NCBI RefSeq assembly: GCF_040954645.1
Contig: NC_092809.1
Coordinates: forward strand, 66,464,141-66,528,140
Origin: Diabrotica undecimpunctata
Taxonomy: Eukaryota > Arthropoda > Insecta > Coleoptera > Chrysomelidae
Length of the DNA: 64,000 nt
Direction of reading: 5' to 3'
Positions 45,295-58,639 of the stretch are shown in pieces (position 1 is the stretch's first letter; every line of letters starts with the position of its first letter). Position numbers and translations under genes: made by a program. A model generated the notes under the pieces. It was not told the origin of the DNA, made no database searches, and saw nothing but the letters and a program-made list of their open reading frames with translations.

Positions 45295-47795
45295 GAAAGC
45301 CTAACGCAGTTTGTCATACCAATTGTTTCGGAATTCAAATACCTTGATGTAATGTTTGATAAAAATTGCTTTGGACTCAACATATTAACTACACAAGTAG
45401 TCGCTGCGAAAAAGGTATTAACATATTTAAAATGCTATTTAAGAGATTGTAGTATGCAAATCAAAATATTGCATTGAATTTTTATCGAGCATATAATATA
45501 AGATGTATTATATATTACAACTATTTCTTATATGGGTAAGCTAGTATAACTAATTTACATAACCTTGATAGAATCCAATTTAAAGCTTTGAAAATTATGT
45601 AAGGGTTGATGAAAAGCATTTCAAATAAAGCCACATTGGTTCTAGCCTCTGAAGACCCACTCTCATTACGCAGAGAATATCTGGCAAGCAAATACTTCAT
45701 AATCCAACATTATCGGTGTACCCATAATGCTAAAATAATTAATTAAATAAATACAGCTGATTTAACATCTACATTCTTCTTAAAAAAGAATTCCCACACC
45801 ACTTGCAAAAGCATTTGTAACTTGCAATGAACTTCTTCTTCTTCTTTTACTTTTTGAAGATCTTTCAATCTGTTTAATTCTGAAGCTGCCTCTGGTTAAT
45901 TTCCTGGGAGGTAGATTGCCAACTATCCCTCCATCTTTTAGGTGGTCTTCCGGGAGGTCTTGAACTGGGCGAATTGTTTTCTAGGGCAATTTTTTGGGAG
46001 TCTATTCTCATCCATTCGTCTTACATGATTTACCACATCCTCTTACTCTGCCTTCCCTATTTTACAATATCCTGAATTTTGCACTGCTCTCTGACGTTTG
46101 TTTTTCTCACCCTGTCTCTTCTTGTTTTTGACCACTATTGTTCTTAGGGTTTTCATTTTGGCAACCCTTAGCATCTGTTTCGTTTTGTTACTATCTGTGC
46201 GCATATACAGATTTGAACAGACTATCTCCCGCAGACATCCCGACAATGCGGATGCTTTGTTGATTTGACTCCTTAGGTCCTTTACTGGATCGTGTCTGCT
46301 TGATATATTTATGCCCAGATATCTGAATTGCATCACCTGTTCTATGGGGTTGTTCTCAACCACTAACTTACATCTGAGCGGATCTTTTGCTTTTGTCATA
46401 CATTTAGTTTTGTCAGTAGAAATGGTCATATTTAGTTGGCGGCTTATTTGAAAGAACTGGAAGAGCTGTCTCTAAATATCATCTTCTGATTCGGCAATAA
46501 TTACTGCATCATCTGCGTAACACACCATACCAATTCTTTTGTTGCCATTCTGTATCCGAGATTAAGAGATGTTACTTTATTTATAATTTTGCATATGAGT
46601 AGGTTAAACAAGAAGGGGCTTAAACTGTCGCCTTGTCTAATTCCTTCCGGTGTTGGAATATTTTCAGTGAATTGGTCTCTTGCTCTAATTTTAGTTACAT
46701 TGTTGATATTTAGGTTATGGACTATTTTTGTTATGTTGGTCGGTGTTTTATTTTCTACTAACATATTTAGAATGTCTCCCAGGTGAACCCTGTCAAACGC
46801 CTTCGTCAAATTAATGAAGCAAATATACGCTGGCGTGCCGAACTCTATAGCTTTTTCTTCTATTGATTTTATTAAAAATCCTGCATTTGTTATAGACCGC
46901 CCTCTTGTAAAACCTTGTTGTTCTTCAGCATTAGTGATCTGCCTTTCCAATTTGTCCTTAAGAATACTCGTGAAAAGTTTCATTCCACTGGTGTTTCTGT
47001 GTCGTTTAAGATTTTGTTAAATAGTTGTGACAATTTACTTGCATGTTCAGAGCCTCCATATTTTAAGAGTTTATTGGGTATACCTTCTGTTCCAGTTGAT
47101 TTTCTGTTTTTAGCTTCTTGATCTTTGCTTCTATCTCTTCGTCATTGATTGTAGCACTTATATCAGCTTCGTATTCGTTTATATTCAGCGTTTGAACAAT
47201 TCTGTAAACTTAAGTTAATAAATTCTCCTTATAATCCTATTTGGAAATCATTGGATATACCACACCTGTCAAGTGTTTTATCTACAAGCAATATTATTCC
47301 TAATATCAAACTGAATTTTGTCATAAAACTTTCAAGGGGATCTTAAATAACTATTCAGATTACATTGCAATCTATAAAAATGGGTCAATATTAAAAACAT
47401 GTACAACCAGTGCTGACTTTGTACCAAAAATTAAGACTAAATTTGTTTAAATTGCGATTAACAGTGGCTCCAAACCAATTTTACAAAGTTGTCGCACTAA
47501 GTAGAAATACAGTATCCACCATCCTAAGATTAGAACCTAAGTAAATTATGTATATTTTCCGAAGCATCTGTACGAAATCGGAGTTCTCCCAATAGACAGA
47601 TGTGAGTGTAGAACTAGTAATGCTGAACCAAATCATATATTTTTTAACTATCCCGTACATGGTAATACAAATACGTGGCTGCTTCAAGAATTGCCGAAAG
47701 CAGGTTTAAATGTGCTATTAAATTTAAGTGAAGATAACACAAAAATTTTTAAATTGATGATATTTCTGCAAAAAATTAAACTAAAGGTGTGAATG
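45295..47795 (+). pseudogene. I/Jockey-like LINE pol (plus strand), split by another LINE
   Basis: First part (45,295-45,800): RT thumb and connection, VSEFKYLDVMFDKNCFGLNI, LDRIQFKALKIM, KATLVLASEDPLSLRREYLA and SKYFIIQHYR. Second part (47,215-47,795): RNase H and C-terminus, DYIAIYKNGS (usual Asp of the first RNase H motif is Asn here), IGVLPIDRCECRTSNAEPNH and a long helical end WLLQELPKAGLNVLLNLSED, NTKIFKLMIFLQKIKLKV stop. The two parts are collinear pieces of one element in the same orientation, separated by a minus-strand LINE. Stops occur in both. The palm and everything 5' of it are missing. Confidence 0.65.
45826..47205 (-). pseudogene. LINE reverse transcriptase nested in the plus-strand LINE
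   Basis: A minus-strand, 5'-truncated LINE. The 160-codon frame (46,983-46,501) begins MKLFTSILKDKLERQITNAE and holds EEQQGFTRGRSITNAGFLIK, YICFINLTKAFDRVH (Asn at the usual first catalytic Asp) and GIRQGDSLSPFLFNLLIC. VCYADDAVIIAESEDD follows in another frame (about 46,495-46,530), so the YADD box survives. Then TISTDKTKCMT, QFRYLGINIS, KASALSGCLREIVCSNLYMR and MKTLRTIVVKNKKRQGEKNK (46,429-46,043). The 3' end at about 45,826 has the GAA-rich tail. The family resembles RTE/L2-type insect elements. Confidence 0.7.
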
Positions 47796-48224: not shown

Positions 48225-48470
48225 CTTGGCCTTCGCATGTCTATTTTTGGGCATAGGCCTCTCCCAACTCCTTCCATCGATCTCTATCCTGCGCAACATA
48301 CTTCCAATTTGTTTCGCCTATTCTTTTGATGTCGTCCACCCATCTTATATGTGTTGTTCCTCTTCTCGTCTACCATTGTAAGATTTCCAATGTTGTATTA
48401 TGCGTTCCAAGGTTGGTCTTTTTGTCTAGCAGTGTGACCTGCGACGCTCCATTTGAGTTTGGTAATGTTC

Positions 48471-48742
48471 TGTAGCGAGATTAAATAAAACGAGCGGTTC
48501 GAATTTATATAAATATATGTATTTATAGTTTACAGTTCGGTACTCTCTTATCAACTAAACTCACTCCTAACAACCTTACATATATAACAAAGTTACTATT
48601 TTCTAGAACATTCCCACCTCTAATTCGACTCATCGAGATCATCCGTCCGAAAGACGGGCGCTATTGACATGCCGATTCTTACGTTTTCTAGATTCATCCT
48701 TCTAAGAATTATGACATATCGGAGAAGGGCTATTTTGTTACA
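48471..48742 (-). repeat. 3' LTR of the gypsy element
   Basis: 272 bp starting TGTAGCGAGATT and ending TTTTGTTACA on the plus strand, so TGTA...TACA at the termini. On the element strand it is immediately preceded by AGAGGGGAGCAA, a polypurine tract that primes plus-strand synthesis. The inner end matches the short LTR remnant at 50,764-50,800. Confidence 0.8.
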
Positions 48743-48756
48743 TTGCTCCCCTCTTA
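48743..48756 (-). promoter_or_regulatory. Polypurine tract
   Basis: AAGAGGGGAGCAA on the minus strand lies directly against the LTR boundary and directly after the stop of the macro/CCCH reading frame. Confidence 0.7.
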
Positions 48757-49206
48757 GATCTGAGCGTTCCGATCAGCAACTCCAGATGTAGGCCCAGGAT
48801 GGCGGAATCTACAGAGCTCTCCAGCTCTACATGAACCCCTCAAGAAGAAATAACAGTCTACAGACTTTGAAGGACACGATATCTTCGGATTAGTGCAACA
48901 CACAGTAATTCTTACGCCGGTTTCTCGAAAGATCACTTCAAGCATGCTTCTGACAATCTCCCAGTCCAGATTATCTAGTGCGTGGCCTATCTTGGGTAAG
49001 GCCAAATTCTTAATGTCATAACTGCAGACGATTTTCTTCAAATTAGTTAGAGCACGTCATATATCCTCGTAGGTTGCCCTGTCTGTATACGACTTTCTGG
49101 TTACCATATACAGCAAAGATCGAGAACCATCTTCTAATCTCAGTACTCTTGGGCAACACAGTGGGCTAGAGAGACGTTATGCGGAACACTAAGAATATCC
49201 TGCTGA
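48754..49206 (-). pseudogene. TARG1/OARD1-like macro domain plus CCCH zinc finger, C-terminal to gypsy integrase
   Basis: Macro domains bind ADP-ribose; the TARG1/OARD1 branch removes ADP-ribose from proteins. The reading begins in the integrase frame with DILSVPHNVSLAHCVAQEY (49,205-49,140), which matches the start of this branch (S-L-A-H-C-V). A short segment is then missing and the frame changes. It continues LEDGSRSLLYMVTRKSY and TYEDI, a TGA (49,057-49,059), then RALTNLKKIVCSYDIKNLAL, PKIGHALDNLDWEIVRSMLE and FRETGVRITVCC. The family Lys in (I/V)-T-K appears as Arg here if aligned as I read it, while the Asp in the L-D-x-L-x-W motif is kept. A zinc finger follows: CYFFLRGSCRAGELCRFRH, CX7CX5CX3H, as in RNA-binding CCCH proteins. 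The frame stops just before the polypurine tract. Its normal role would be in the element's polyprotein. This copy is inactive. Confidence 0.75.
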
Positions 49207-50637
49207 ACTTCTGTGGTCACGCCGAATCTAGCACTCTTTCTCTCTGAGTAATTTGACATAAATTCATTAAAGCTCGGTCGCCGGTTATCTTTGATCTCAT
49301 GTTGAAGGGTTCGTGCTTCTCCTTTTTCATTTGAGCCAGCATATGGTGCAAGACGATTTATGTGAACTACTTTTGGTTTACCTTTCGGCAACTTCTTAAT
49401 TCGGTATATGATTTATTCTCTTTTTAATTCCATACGGACCTTCCCATTGTCTTTGCAGTTTAGGAGACAAGCCTCGACGATGTTGTGGATTGTAAAGCCA
49501 AACAAGATCACCTACTTCATAGCTTTCATTCTTGCATCGAGAATCGTATTGATCTTTCGTTCTGTCACTGGCTAACTGGATGTGTTGTCGGGCAAGTTCA
49601 TGAAGGTTGTTCATTCTTAACTTCAGGCGTTCGACATAATCTTCGCTTGCAAAATGTTCTTTGGAAAGTCTGCAGCCAAACTCTAGATCTCAGGGCAAAC
49701 GAACTTCACAACCTAACATCAGGCAGGTTGGAGTCTGGCCTGTAGTTTTATTCACGGCCGAGCGGTAGGCCATTAGGAATAAATGAATGTGCTGGTCCCA
49801 ATCTCTTTGATGTTCTGATACAACTTTGGACAGGTGTTTACCCATTGTTCGGTTTATTCTCTCGACCATTTCATTTGATTGAGGATGCAGGGGTGTCGTT
49901 CTGGTCTTATTGACACTTCTGTGGTCACGCCGAATCTAGCACTCTTTCTCTCTGAGTAATTTGACATAAATTCATTAAAGCTCGGTCGCCGGTCATCTTT
50001 GATCTCATGTTGAAGGGTTCGTGCTTCTCCTTTTTCATTTGAGCCAGCATATGGTGCAAGACGATTTATGTGAACTACTTCTGGTTTACCTTTCGGCAAC
50101 TTCTTAATTTGGTATATGATTTATTCTCTTTTTAATTTCATACGGACCTTCCCATTGTCTTTGCAGTTTAGGAGACAAGCCTCGACGACGTTGTGGATTG
50201 TAAAGCCAAACAAGATCACCTACTTCATAGCTTTCATTCTTGCATCGAGAATCGTATTGATCTTTCATTCTGTCACTGGCTAACTGGATGTGTTGTCGGG
50301 CAAGTTCATGAAGGTTGTTCATTCTTAACTTCAGGCGGTCGACATAATCTTCGTTTGCAACATGTTCTTCGGAAAGTCTGCAGCCAAACTCTAGATCTCA
50401 GGGCAAACGAACTTCACGACCTAACATCAGGCAGGTTGGAGTCTGGCCTGTAGTTCACGGCCTTCACGGCCTACTGTAAGGCCTTCACGGCCATTAGGAC
50501 TAAATGAATGTGCTGGTCCCAATCTCTTTGATGTTCTGATACAACCTTGGACAGGTGTTTACCCATTGTTCGGTTCACTCTCTCGACCATTTCATTTGAT
50601 TGAGGATGCAGGATTGTCGTTCTGGTCTTATTGACAC
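49207..50637. repeat. 708-bp tandem duplication within gypsy integrase
   Basis: Copy 1 is 49,207-49,914 and copy 2 is 49,915-50,637. They differ by scattered substitutions and by an extra CACGGCCTTCACGGCC-type insertion in copy 2 near 50,455-50,495. Junctions fall in the integrase core (V-N-K-T-R-T) and the segment after the GPF/Y tail (T-T-E-V). Confidence 0.9.
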
Positions 50638-50752
50638 CAATCAATTTACAAACGTTTTGGAAAAGGGTTGACTCGAAGTTTCGCCCTTGGTCGGAGTGGA
50701 TCTCCAAGGGAACACCAAATCGGCTAAAGAATTCTTTAACAAGTACCTCTGT
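49207..50752 (-). pseudogene. Gypsy integrase C-terminal region, tandemly duplicated
   Basis: The 5' part (50,707-50,471) is the end of the integrase catalytic core: EIHSDQGRNFESTLFQNVCK (second catalytic Asp in H-S-D-Q-G), TRTTILHPQSNEMVERVNRT (Glu of the D,D35E triad in M-V-E-R) and WDQHIHLVLMA. Then MNNLHELARQHIQLASDRMK, YEVGDLVWLYNPQRRRGLSP and LQRQWEGPYEIKKRI form the GPF/Y module, with KPEVVHINRLAPYAGSNEKG after a stop. From within the core to TTEV everything is repeated once more at 49,914-49,207 (708-bp unit). Two-base and small differences separate the copies. The N-terminal HHCC domain and the first catalytic Asp are deleted. Confidence 0.88.
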
Positions 50753-50832
50753 AACGGTAGCAAGAATTATGACGTATCGGAGGTGGGCTATTTCGTTACA
50801 GTTCGTTGTGATATCCTCAACTTTTGTTTTTG

Positions 50833-51630
50833 ATCTTCTTCTTCTTAATGTGCCTATCCGTTACGAATGTTGGCAATCATCATGGCAATCTTTATCTTAT
50901 CTGCAGCAGCGCGGAAAAGCTGCACAGATGTTGTATTGAACCAGATTCTAAGGTTCTTTAATCAAGATGTTCTTCTTCCTGGACCACATTTTCCAAATAT
51001 ATTCCTTGCAGGATGGCTTGAAGGAGAGCATATCTAGATTCATTTCGCGTAATATATCTGAAGAACTGTAACTTTCGAGAATTGGTGGTGGTCAGTCCTT
51101 CTCGATTCTTATTCATTCCTTCTCATTTGTGACTCGGTCAGTCCACGGGATCTTAAGCATTCTCCGGTATAGCCACATCTCAAATGCTCCCAGTTTTCTG
51201 CACATATCTTTGTTCGAGGTCGACGATTCAACACCATAAAAAAGGACAGAGAAGACGTAGCATCGCAGCATTCTTACTTTTGATCTTACCCAGTTGTTTC
51301 TCTTTTTATCTAAAAGTCGTATCCCTAACCATTGCCCTTTCTGTTGTGGCTAGTTTATTTCTGTTTGTCTTAGTTAGACAAATCTTGATTCATATGCCAT
51401 GATAGGAAGAATGCATTAGTGGAACACTTTGCTCTACAACTATTGAGGTATTTTGCGGTTCTTCAAATTGAGTATTCCAAATCCTGCCCATGCCAGTCTT
51501 GCTCTTCTAGTGATTTCCGTACTTTGGTTTTCTTTGTCAAGTTACAGAATTTGGCTTCTGAAGTTATATTCCTGGACTTGTTCTATCTAGTTATACGTTC
51601 TAGTTATACGTCTGAGACATTTACGGAGAC
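50833..51630 (-). pseudogene. LINE C-terminal region and 3' end
   Basis: On the minus strand: VESSTSNKDMCRKLGAFEMW, LYRRMLKIPWTDRVTNEKE (about 51,120-51,230), DMLSFKPSCKEYIWKMWSRK and TTSVQLFRAAADKIKIAMMI, then ANIRNG stop near 50,870 and a GAA tail at 50,833. This order, E-M-W-x-Y-R-R-M-L then a basic segment, then L-F-R-A-A-x-D-K, is the standard C-terminus of the same LINE family as the 20.8, 53.9 and 61.0 kb fragments. There are several stops. It is 5'-truncated. Confidence 0.7.
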
Positions 51631-52985
51631 CTGATAATAAACAGCAATTTTTTTGCTGTTTTGCAAAAACAGTCTTTTTGTGGACAAAATTTTGTCAATC
51701 TTACTCTTAATAAATTAATGTTATAATTCTTCTGCTTATTCTTATTTTTATTCTGCTATTAGTTATAATCATTTTATTAGATTTAGTTGTTTATTGTTTG
51801 TTTTGTGTTGTTTTTAGCTTGTAGTTTTTACTAAACAAAGACTAACGTAACGACTAACTCCGATAATTTAATACATATTGTAATCCTTGAAACCAGTAGC
51901 CCAAATTTACCATCGATAAAGAATAAAAACTACTTAAGATTGTGAGTATTGATCTCTTTCCCATAATATGTAATGTATAATCATTAAAATAAAAAATAGT
52001 TTGAATTATAAATCAATATGATATATCAATCATAAACCTATTAAAAATATGTGTTTTATGATCGATTAAGATACGTGTTTTAATGTTTTACAAGAAATTA
52101 AAAAGTTATGTGTCTATCATCATCATAAACCTTTGAACTTAATTGTGTCAACATTTTTATTGTTGTGTTTAATTTGTTGAGTAAAGTTTATTACTCTTTA
52201 TCTGACAATAACGTTTTATGAAGATATTAATTCTTTAAAGTTTACAAACATCCATGTAACATGAAATATAAACCAAGTTATTATTTTTAATGATCTTTTT
52301 GATTAAAAGGTCACTTCACTATTTTTATTGCGTGAGGGCATTGGCAATGGGATATCATGTACAGGGAAGATAGTTTTAAACTAACAATTAAGTCATTGTT
52401 TTTCTTTCAATTTCTTTTATATTATAACAGGGGATATCTGTTAACAAAGTTAATATCAAATAATATACATCATATATATTTTATACAAACATTCGTAATC
52501 ACAGAGCCAAATATATTAGTGTTTTTCGCGGAACAAGTATGTCTAAATAAAAAGAAATATTTACTTCAATGCTATTTCCGAGCTCCTTACTATTAAGACG
52601 TCACACCCAGATGTCAAAATAAGGTCACTAATGGAGCAAACAAATCAAAAATATCTTAAAGTATTATTATTTTTTAATATTTTGAAAAAGTGTAAGTGTT
52701 GATGAGCAAATGTTTAGGTACTGCGGTTATCATTATTTCATTAGATATCTGCATTTCATTAGAGTAAAGCCTTTTAATTCAATTTGGATCTAAATAGTGA
52801 ACAATACAAGTAGCTGAGCACAAATGAAATAATATTAGCTAAGAGATGATTTGTGAACGGGAAAAAATGTCTGAATATTGCTAAGCATCTGTTATAATAA
52901 AGGACATAACACTCTTTGAAAATCCTTCAAATTATATATTTTACTTCGATAATTTTTTCACCAATTTTTAACTAATGAAAAAATA
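51631..52985. other. No gene seen; contains a dispersed repeat copy
   Basis: AT-rich. The only recognisable part is copy 2 of the dispersed repeat at 51,839-51,961. Confidence 0.5.
51839..51961 (+). repeat. Dispersed repeat, copy 2
   Basis: Diverged copy of the repeat at 31,259-31,382, sharing GACTAACGTA, ATATTGTAA, CCTTGAAACC, GTAGCCCA and TACTTAAGATT. The CTGATGA box of copy 1 is not retained here. Confidence 0.65.
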
Positions 52986-52988
52986 AAA

Positions 52989-53144
<156 letters not shown>

Positions 53145-53238
53145 AGCAGCTTTAGAGTGGTATAAACAAATGTCCTATAAAATTAGACAATAACAAGGAA
53201 TTTTGCGGCAGTATAGATTACAGATTTAATGTAAATAT

Positions 53239-57226: not shown

Positions 57227-58622
<1,396 letters not shown>

Positions 58623-58639
58623 AACTATATAAGGTTTCA

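Follow-up and report, generated by a model that had tools for sequence, protein, structure and literature searches.

A lineage of Ty3/Gypsy-type long terminal repeat (LTR) retrotransposons of the beetle Diabrotica undecimpunctata has relatives in other beetles and encodes an OARD1/TARG1-family macrodomain at the end of its Pol protein, beyond the p58 domain of integrase; in many cases one CCCH zinc finger follows the macrodomain. The arrangement was noticed in a stretch of 64,000 nucleotides of this genome (contig NC_092809.1, positions 66,464,141 to 66,528,140), referred to as the window, which holds a dead, internally deleted and rearranged copy of one such family (family A). Complete copies with near-identical LTRs are present in the same genome. 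The initial annotation of the window had read a Gypsy Pol ending in a macrodomain and a finger; this observation is confirmed and is larger than first stated, the architecture having been read correctly and one point, a Lys to Arg change taken as decay, wrongly.

The macro segment of the window copy lies on the minus strand, is real, and displays the motifs claimed for it. Its translation places DILSVPHNVSLAHCV in frame with the integrase C-terminus (open reading frame 49140-49412), which continues directly as DILSVPHNVSLAHCVAQ. A second frame holds LLYMVTRK, TYEDI, PKIGHALDNLDW and RITV, followed by the CX7CX5CX3H finger (CYFFLRGSCRAGELCRFRH), and ends, as had been noted, at the polypurine tract; the stop is a TAA, and the tract adjoins the LTR. 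A TGA separates TYEDI from the PKIGHALDNLDW part, and arithmetic from the blastn alignment to full copies gives a net deletion of ∼92 bp within the macrodomain. The TGA, the frame change and this deletion are damage particular to the window copy.

The assignment to the TARG1/OARD1 type is borne out by sequence and by predicted fold. The broken downstream piece of the window copy alone matches human OARD1 (E=5e-6) and CPSF30, five CCCH fingers together (E=2e-9), among PDB sequences, and an intact family-A copy matches OARD1 at E=5e-28 over 134 residues. The fold predicted by AlphaFold2 for the macro region of an intact family-A copy (L031) is closest to TARG1, in a fold search that covered the macro region only and with an input alignment that contained OARD1 proteins. 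The closest viral-library match of this model is the putative VP8 of Kadipiro virus (BFVD A0A8E0KJF2; E=6e-16, 35% identity), a viral protein whose domain is TARG1-like. The Pfam family Macro (PF01661) is absent from the matches given for L031 (E up to 0.1) and for L066 (E up to 0.01), a complete copy of a second family described below; its cut-off is reached in the related P0033, in the same protein as Integrase_p58_C. NCBIfam gives a match to DarG only, which is sub-threshold. The finger, also as claimed, scores 24.4 (window copy), 21.9 (L031) and 24.5 (L066) bits with zf-CCCH (PF00642) against a cut-off of 20.5, and resembles the CPSF30 fingers in the window copy, the intact family-A copy and L066. 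Its four ligands are kept in 41 (C), 42 (C), 42 (C) and 41 (H) of 42 family-A loci.

The genome was searched with a 100-residue piece from the window copy, and 150 of 5001 candidates were scored, so that the counts are lower bounds. All 150 places match the piece at E 1.2e-53 or better, and three of them have frames of at least 1400 aa. The family-A sample of 42 loci consisted of 30 loci of 3.3 kb, with the window copy first, and 12 stretches of 8 kb picked for long open frames. Each of the 12 longer loci displays a 3' LTR and a second LTR upstream, the two being 96.8-100% identical. The Gag frame (419 aa) and the Pol frame (1414 aa) are both unbroken in L031 and L032; L033 has an unbroken Pol frame and a short Gag frame, and the remaining nine have shorter Pol frames. 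Among seven loci examined, a 4-base target duplication is found at L031, L033, L034 and L037, and at L032 and L041 after correction of the LTR ends by two and six bases; that of L039 lies inside an AT tract and carries little weight.

Pfam analysis of L031 revealed SAP, Retrotrans_gag and CCHC in Gag, and protease, RVT_1, RNase H, Integrase_H2C2, rve, Integrase_p58_C (1155-1188) and zf-CCCH (1378-1401) in Pol. The space between the last two has no Pfam match, and this space is the macrodomain. No chromodomain family is among the matches listed in the Pfam scans of L031 and L066. Both copies have gag upstream and the Pol order protease, reverse transcriptase (RT), RNase H and integrase, and the two LTRs, the polypurine tract and the 4-bp target duplication of Ty3/Gypsy elements are found in fetched copies, L066 included.

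A second search used fly OARD1 (P0059) as query, with 150 of 4830 candidates scored. Frames of at least 1400 aa occur at 58 of the 150 listed places, some of them of family A (L064, 1413 aa, has family-A sequence). Family B comprises loci with 38% identity to fly OARD1 that are distinct from family A. Its copy L066 has Gag-Pol as a single frame of 1829 aa, LTRs 98% identical and the target duplication CTTA; Pfam identifies SAP, gag, protease, RT, RNase H, H2C2, rve, p58_C and zf-CCCH in it, and its macrodomain matches OARD1 at 2e-22. Another copy, L065, has a Pol frame of 1422 aa, and an LTR pair was not seen within the 6.2 kb fetched. The initial annotation had proposed looking for intact copies with RT, integrase, macrodomain and CCCH finger between two LTRs; L031 and L066 are such copies, and the Gypsy Pol architecture with a terminal OARD1-type macrodomain and finger is strongly supported by them. 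Neither of the two outcomes that the initial annotation had named as refuting its reading came about: other LTR elements carry the macro segment, and both sequence and fold match TARG1. Many listed places of the second search have frame lengths similar to that of L066. The best single match to fly OARD1, L055 (G000:C3:100934203-100934619), is a 760-aa frame with an intact-looking OARD1 domain keeping Lys and GCGLD; no integrase is seen in it, no Pfam match is listed for the part scanned, and it is probably a host gene. Its OARD1 domain is followed by what looks, by eye, like another macro stretch of greater divergence.

Constraint on the domain was estimated as the ratio of nonsynonymous to synonymous differences (pN/pS), with a bootstrap over codons. 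The main family-A estimate used 12 long loci picked for long open frames, the copy pairs of which are not independent. The macrodomain of family A gives 0.19 (0.08-0.44), next to 0.19 and 0.26 for the core and the C-terminal domain of integrase (9 copies each) and 0.33 for RT (5 copies); the linker gives 1.14 (0.93-1.49) and the CCCH tail 0.39 (0.13-1.82). The corresponding values in family B (up to 10 copies) are 0.36 (0.22-0.61) for the macrodomain, 0.21 for the integrase core, 0.65 (0.28-2.04) for the linker and 0.47 (0.18-1.54) for the CCCH tail. The macrodomain is under constraint, about equal to that on integrase in family A and somewhat weaker in family B.

Both families show changes in the active site. 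In the available text of PMC6397177, whose numbering of human TARG1 is used here, T83, K84 and D125 line the distal ribose, K84 being the nucleophile; OARD1/TARG1 proteins are described there by the pattern TKx(30,35)Px[IL]GxGxD, in which K84 and D125 are the catalytic residues. This pattern occurs in neither Diabrotica family. The Lys to Arg change had been counted, with the TGA and the frame change, among the signs that the window copy is dead; the latter two stand, and Arg occupies the K84 position in all 42 family-A loci read, among them the window copy, by which decay is rejected as its cause. The query of the first genome search lacks this position, which means that Arg played no part in selecting the loci. 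Arg is also present there in the five Diabrotica database proteins, which come from three species. The D125 position of family A has D in 12 and E in 30 of the 42 loci; at the G123 position 39 loci have A, two have V and one has P, and GHAL(D/E) mostly takes the place of GCGLD. Family B has Lys at the K84 position in 9/9 loci where it is seen; LT or HT replaces HC in loop 1, and ECRQ, DCRQ or ECGQ stands instead of GCGLD in 8/8 loci, with loss of the GxGxD loop.

Proteins of the same group outside Diabrotica retain K84 (28/28 with a letter there) as well as D125 and G123 (29/29), while G121 varies. The full TARG1 pattern, with 28-40 residues allowed between its parts, is present in 10 of these 29; because several of them are nearly identical copies within a single species, fewer than 29 are independent, and P0009, too short for the tree, was assigned to the group by similarity. 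These residues suggest that the chemistry is probably lost or weak in both Diabrotica families, through Lys84 to Arg in A and loss of the GxGxD loop in B, and from their conservation we infer that catalysis is still present in the elements of other beetles. The proposal that the domain removes ADP-ribose would accordingly fit the relatives with Lys84 and Asp125 kept, and fits less well the two Diabrotica families, whose active sites appear changed by different routes. We know of no test of K84R. The K84A form of TARG1 fails to rescue from DarT (PMC8501950) and leaves ADP-ribose on telomere DNA (PMC11102865), according to the passages of these reports that deal with it.

Relatives were sought by an alignment-based protein search, which gave 585 proteins at E<=0.001, the best 120 of which were considered. 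Eight proteins were found with the macrodomain alone as query, and none of 318 candidates passed in a search with the Pol C-terminus restricted to candidates of Pol-like length. Relatives of the Diabrotica type among the 120 come from D. virgifera and D. balteata and from Brassicogethes, Aromia, Gonioctena, Molorchus, Leptinotarsa, Acanthoscelides, Callosobruchus and Pyrocoelia, the last eight being beetle genera. The relatives from other beetles are gene-model pieces, not complete elements. At least nine of the proteins have precomputed integrase C-terminal Pfam domains, including those of Molorchus, Leptinotarsa, Aromia and Callosobruchus; those of Brassicogethes, Gonioctena, Acanthoscelides and Pyrocoelia are assigned to retrotransposons from their clade. 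A 58-row tree, chosen from 119 rows, places 23 retrotransposon-type domains on one side of a branch (support 97/91). The 119-row tree has a clade of 33 rows (SH-aLRT 93), consisting of 30 labelled retrotransposon-type beforehand together with P0008, P0045 and P0112, and with family B added the retrotransposon-type clade has support 94/92 (not starred). Gene models named 'ADP-ribose glycohydrolase OARD1-like' (P0002-P0004 and P0035, P0003 being from Diabrotica undecimpunctata) are likely pieces of retrotransposon Pol. Three further proteins (P0034, P0036 and P0052, from aphids as far as named) are neighbours of the retrotransposon clade of beetles in two of the trees, with support 82 in one and 95/76 in the other, and not in the third. 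Viral contigs gave 12 matching loci with 23-33% identity, and phage records 12 matches, all below 60% identity.

Three proteins hold the domain at another point. P0039, P0043 and P0109 have an OARD1-type domain immediately N-terminal to Integrase_H2C2; Pfam cut-offs are reached by Macro and H2C2 in P0039, by H2C2 only in P0043 and by Macro only in P0109. The model of P0043 predicts macro strands and helices at 51-188 (pLDDT 90-98), followed by a helical domain. The three form their own clade with support 100/99, and probably represent a second, separate capture, in LTR elements or integrase-derived genes known from protein pieces. A single origin of the domains after and before the integrase is not rejected (approximately unbiased test, p-AU 0.376), and the grounds for a separate capture are the position of the domain and the drawn tree. 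In P0081, an OARD1-type macrodomain precedes a stretch with LIDTGA that resembles the start of a retroviral-type protease and has no Pfam match; this is possibly a third arrangement. Taken further, LTR retrotransposons may have captured TARG1-type erasers repeatedly and at different points of Pol, namely after integrase in beetles, before it in P0039, P0043 and P0109, and, in P0081, possibly next to the protease. On that view ADP-ribosylation by the host would generally hinder or guide the integration of retrotransposons, with TARG1-type macrodomains as the recurrent counter-measure, a generalization that we put forward tentatively and at less than even confidence.

DNA breaks and chromatin, where poly(ADP-ribose) polymerases (PARPs) are active, are also where retroelements integrate. 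Fusion of a domain that recognises or removes ADP-ribose to the end of integrase suggests that ADP-ribose marks affect insertion of the element. The reading preferred here, to which we give an even chance, is that of a captured ADP-ribose eraser acting on the integration complex or its target, which in Diabrotica has probably become a binding or structural module; every step beyond an OARD1-type domain, constrained and fused to integrase, is inference. As the tail of integrase, the macrodomain would be carried into the particle and become part of the integration complex. With Lys84 and Asp125 in place, as in the ancestor and in other beetles, it may remove PARP-added ADP-ribose from integrase, the cDNA ends or the chromatin of the insertion site, and so make insertion, or the repair that follows, possible. 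The protection of particles or integration complexes from PARPs that the initial annotation proposed is a hypothesis. RNA is the probable ligand of the CCCH finger, as judged from its family. In the Diabrotica families the domain has most likely been retained for binding or tethering, at the place held by the chromodomain in chromoviruses.

Several observations weigh against this reading. The Diabrotica elements are abundant and have many open frames with both active sites altered, so enzymatic removal is seemingly not needed there, and the changed His-Cys and phosphate loops of family B make even ADP-ribose binding doubtful for that family. The pN/pS of the family-A macrodomain rises to 0.30 with 25 loci rather than 12, and is 0.41 among the 13 shorter ones; integrase values of the 25-locus run were set aside, its frame-shifted pieces being judged misaligned, and those of the 12-locus run were used instead. 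The pN/pS intervals of the CCCH tail include 1 in both families, and the full CCCH motif is found in 17 of 27 proteins examined and is absent in P0031-P0033.

Alternatively, the macrodomain could be a reader for target choice, which binds ADP-ribosylated chromatin and steers integration in the way proposed for the integrase chromodomain of chromoviruses, catalysis being incidental. Its location is the hallmark place of the chromodomain (PMC3605345, in the part available), and the family-A fold is kept under constraint despite Arg in every locus read. A pure reader, however, would not need Lys84 and Asp125, kept outside Diabrotica in every examined protein with a letter there, and the pocket loops of family B are changed too; we regard this explanation as rather unlikely. 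A domain captured once that by now has no ADP-ribose role and only helps the C-terminus of Pol to fold, to be processed or to stay soluble would accommodate an active site changed by different routes in two abundant families. Such a spacer is at odds with the catalytic pair conserved in other beetle elements and with the three other integrase-bearing proteins holding an OARD1 domain elsewhere, and we consider it unlikely. The broken and rearranged state of the window copy might itself suggest a host OARD1 gene lying by chance, or by misassembly, beside a Gypsy fragment. This is refuted by the 150 matching places, by unbroken Pol frames that include the domain between LTRs with target duplications, by the strength of the OARD1 match, by L066 and by the other beetle genera carrying the domain, and its probability is negligible. 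With a macrodomain that is fused to integrase, kept under constraint and present in more than one beetle genus, it becomes possible to test directly whether ADP-ribosylation and retrotransposon integration are linked, and the altered catalytic residues of the two abundant Diabrotica families offer a natural comparison of eraser with non-eraser.

Features of the window copy are listed below. Everything before the integrase is gone from its interior and the integrase is partly duplicated. The first integrase segment matches rve (E=4e-6, 50471-50860) and p58_C (E=4e-5, 49854-50120), both below the Pfam cut-offs, and the second matches Integrase_p58_C at E=5e-6 with 27.1 bits against a cut-off of 27.

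Table 1. Coordinates of the family-A copy and its parts in the window
Feature	Positions	Strand	Basis
Whole insertion, family A Ty3/Gypsy-type LTR element	48471..50800	-	TGTAAC...CTACA ends, GAAC flanks; blastn to L031/L033/L038
Target-site duplication GAAC, 5' side of element	50801..50804		flank reading
Target-site duplication GAAC, 3' side of element	48467..48470		flank reading
5' LTR remnant, 39 bp	50762..50800	-	90% match to 48704-48742
First copy of the duplicated integrase segment, overlapping the second	49911..50762	-	93.6% to L031 5292-6134; repeats D2/D3
Integrase core/C-terminus, second copy, into macro N-terminus	49137..49916	-	94.7% to L031 5417-6200
Macrodomain N-terminal piece VQQDILSVPHNVSLAHCVAQ, integrase frame	49149..49208	-	translation; same part of intact copy aligns to OARD1
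Macrodomain middle piece, other frame, Arg at TARG1 Lys84 position	49060..49150	-	translation, alignment; TGA 49057-49059 follows
Macrodomain C-terminal piece PKIGHALDNLDW...RITV	48898..49056	-	OARD1 E=5e-6
CCCH zinc finger CX7CX5CX3H	48799..48855	-	Pfam PF00642 24.4 bits (cut-off 20.5); CPSF30 fingers
Polypurine tract AAGAGGGGAGCAA, overlaps TAA stop 48754-48756	48743..48755	-	same place in L031, L032, L033
3' LTR	48471..48742	-	blastn to L031/L033/L038 LTRs over 48471-48613; match over 48704-48742

When the flanks are rejoined with a single GAAC, an open frame continues across the target sequence, presumably resembling the end of a non-LTR retrotransposon protein. The Gypsy insertion seemingly lies within the end of a non-LTR-type element, and a fragment of non-LTR-type reverse transcriptase is seen by eye on the minus strand at 46501-47016. 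Long AT-rich simple-repeat tracts occupy 52983-53145 and 58520-58632.

Macrodomains let some RNA viruses undo host ADP-ribosylation, and the macrodomains of alphavirus nsP3, rubella p150 and, by fold, Kadipiro virus VP8 resemble the present one in serving a parasite. The cellular OARD1/TARG1 (C6orf130) is a terminal ADP-ribose glycohydrolase; the beetle version differs from it in being fused to a retrotransposon integrase, often with a CCCH finger, and the Diabrotica families differ further in the active-site residues given above. Accessory domains in LTR elements are already a known kind. The initial annotation knew of no description of the architecture, and a literature search for macro/OARD1 domains with retroelements or Diabrotica, whose coverage left out most subscription journals and which therefore does not prove absence, gave no macrodomain in the Pol of a Gypsy/Ty3 element; macrodomain reading frames in fish endogenous retroviruses are, however, on record. 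The chromodomain is an accessory module at the integrase C-terminus of LTR elements (PMC3605345, PMC6338049, in the parts available), and chromoviruses resemble the beetle elements in that their Ty3/Gypsy-type Pol is extended beyond the C-terminal domain of integrase by a further module, which is a chromodomain there and a macrodomain with a CCCH finger here. Orchid Ty3/Gypsy elements carrying an AlkB m6A demethylase are likewise Gypsy elements with an acquired host-type eraser domain, as far as the available text tells; theirs lies in an additional reading frame of 25-kb plant elements and concerns an RNA mark, whereas the beetle domain is part of Pol and concerns ADP-ribose (PMC9289625). Some epsilon-like endogenous retroviruses of ray-finned fish also have a macrodomain in an LTR retroelement, encoded by extra open reading frames in a vertebrate and of a subtype unstated in the passage concerned (PMC4977317, citing Basta et al. 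2009), whereas that of the insect elements is of the TARG1 type and lies within Pol, after the integrase.
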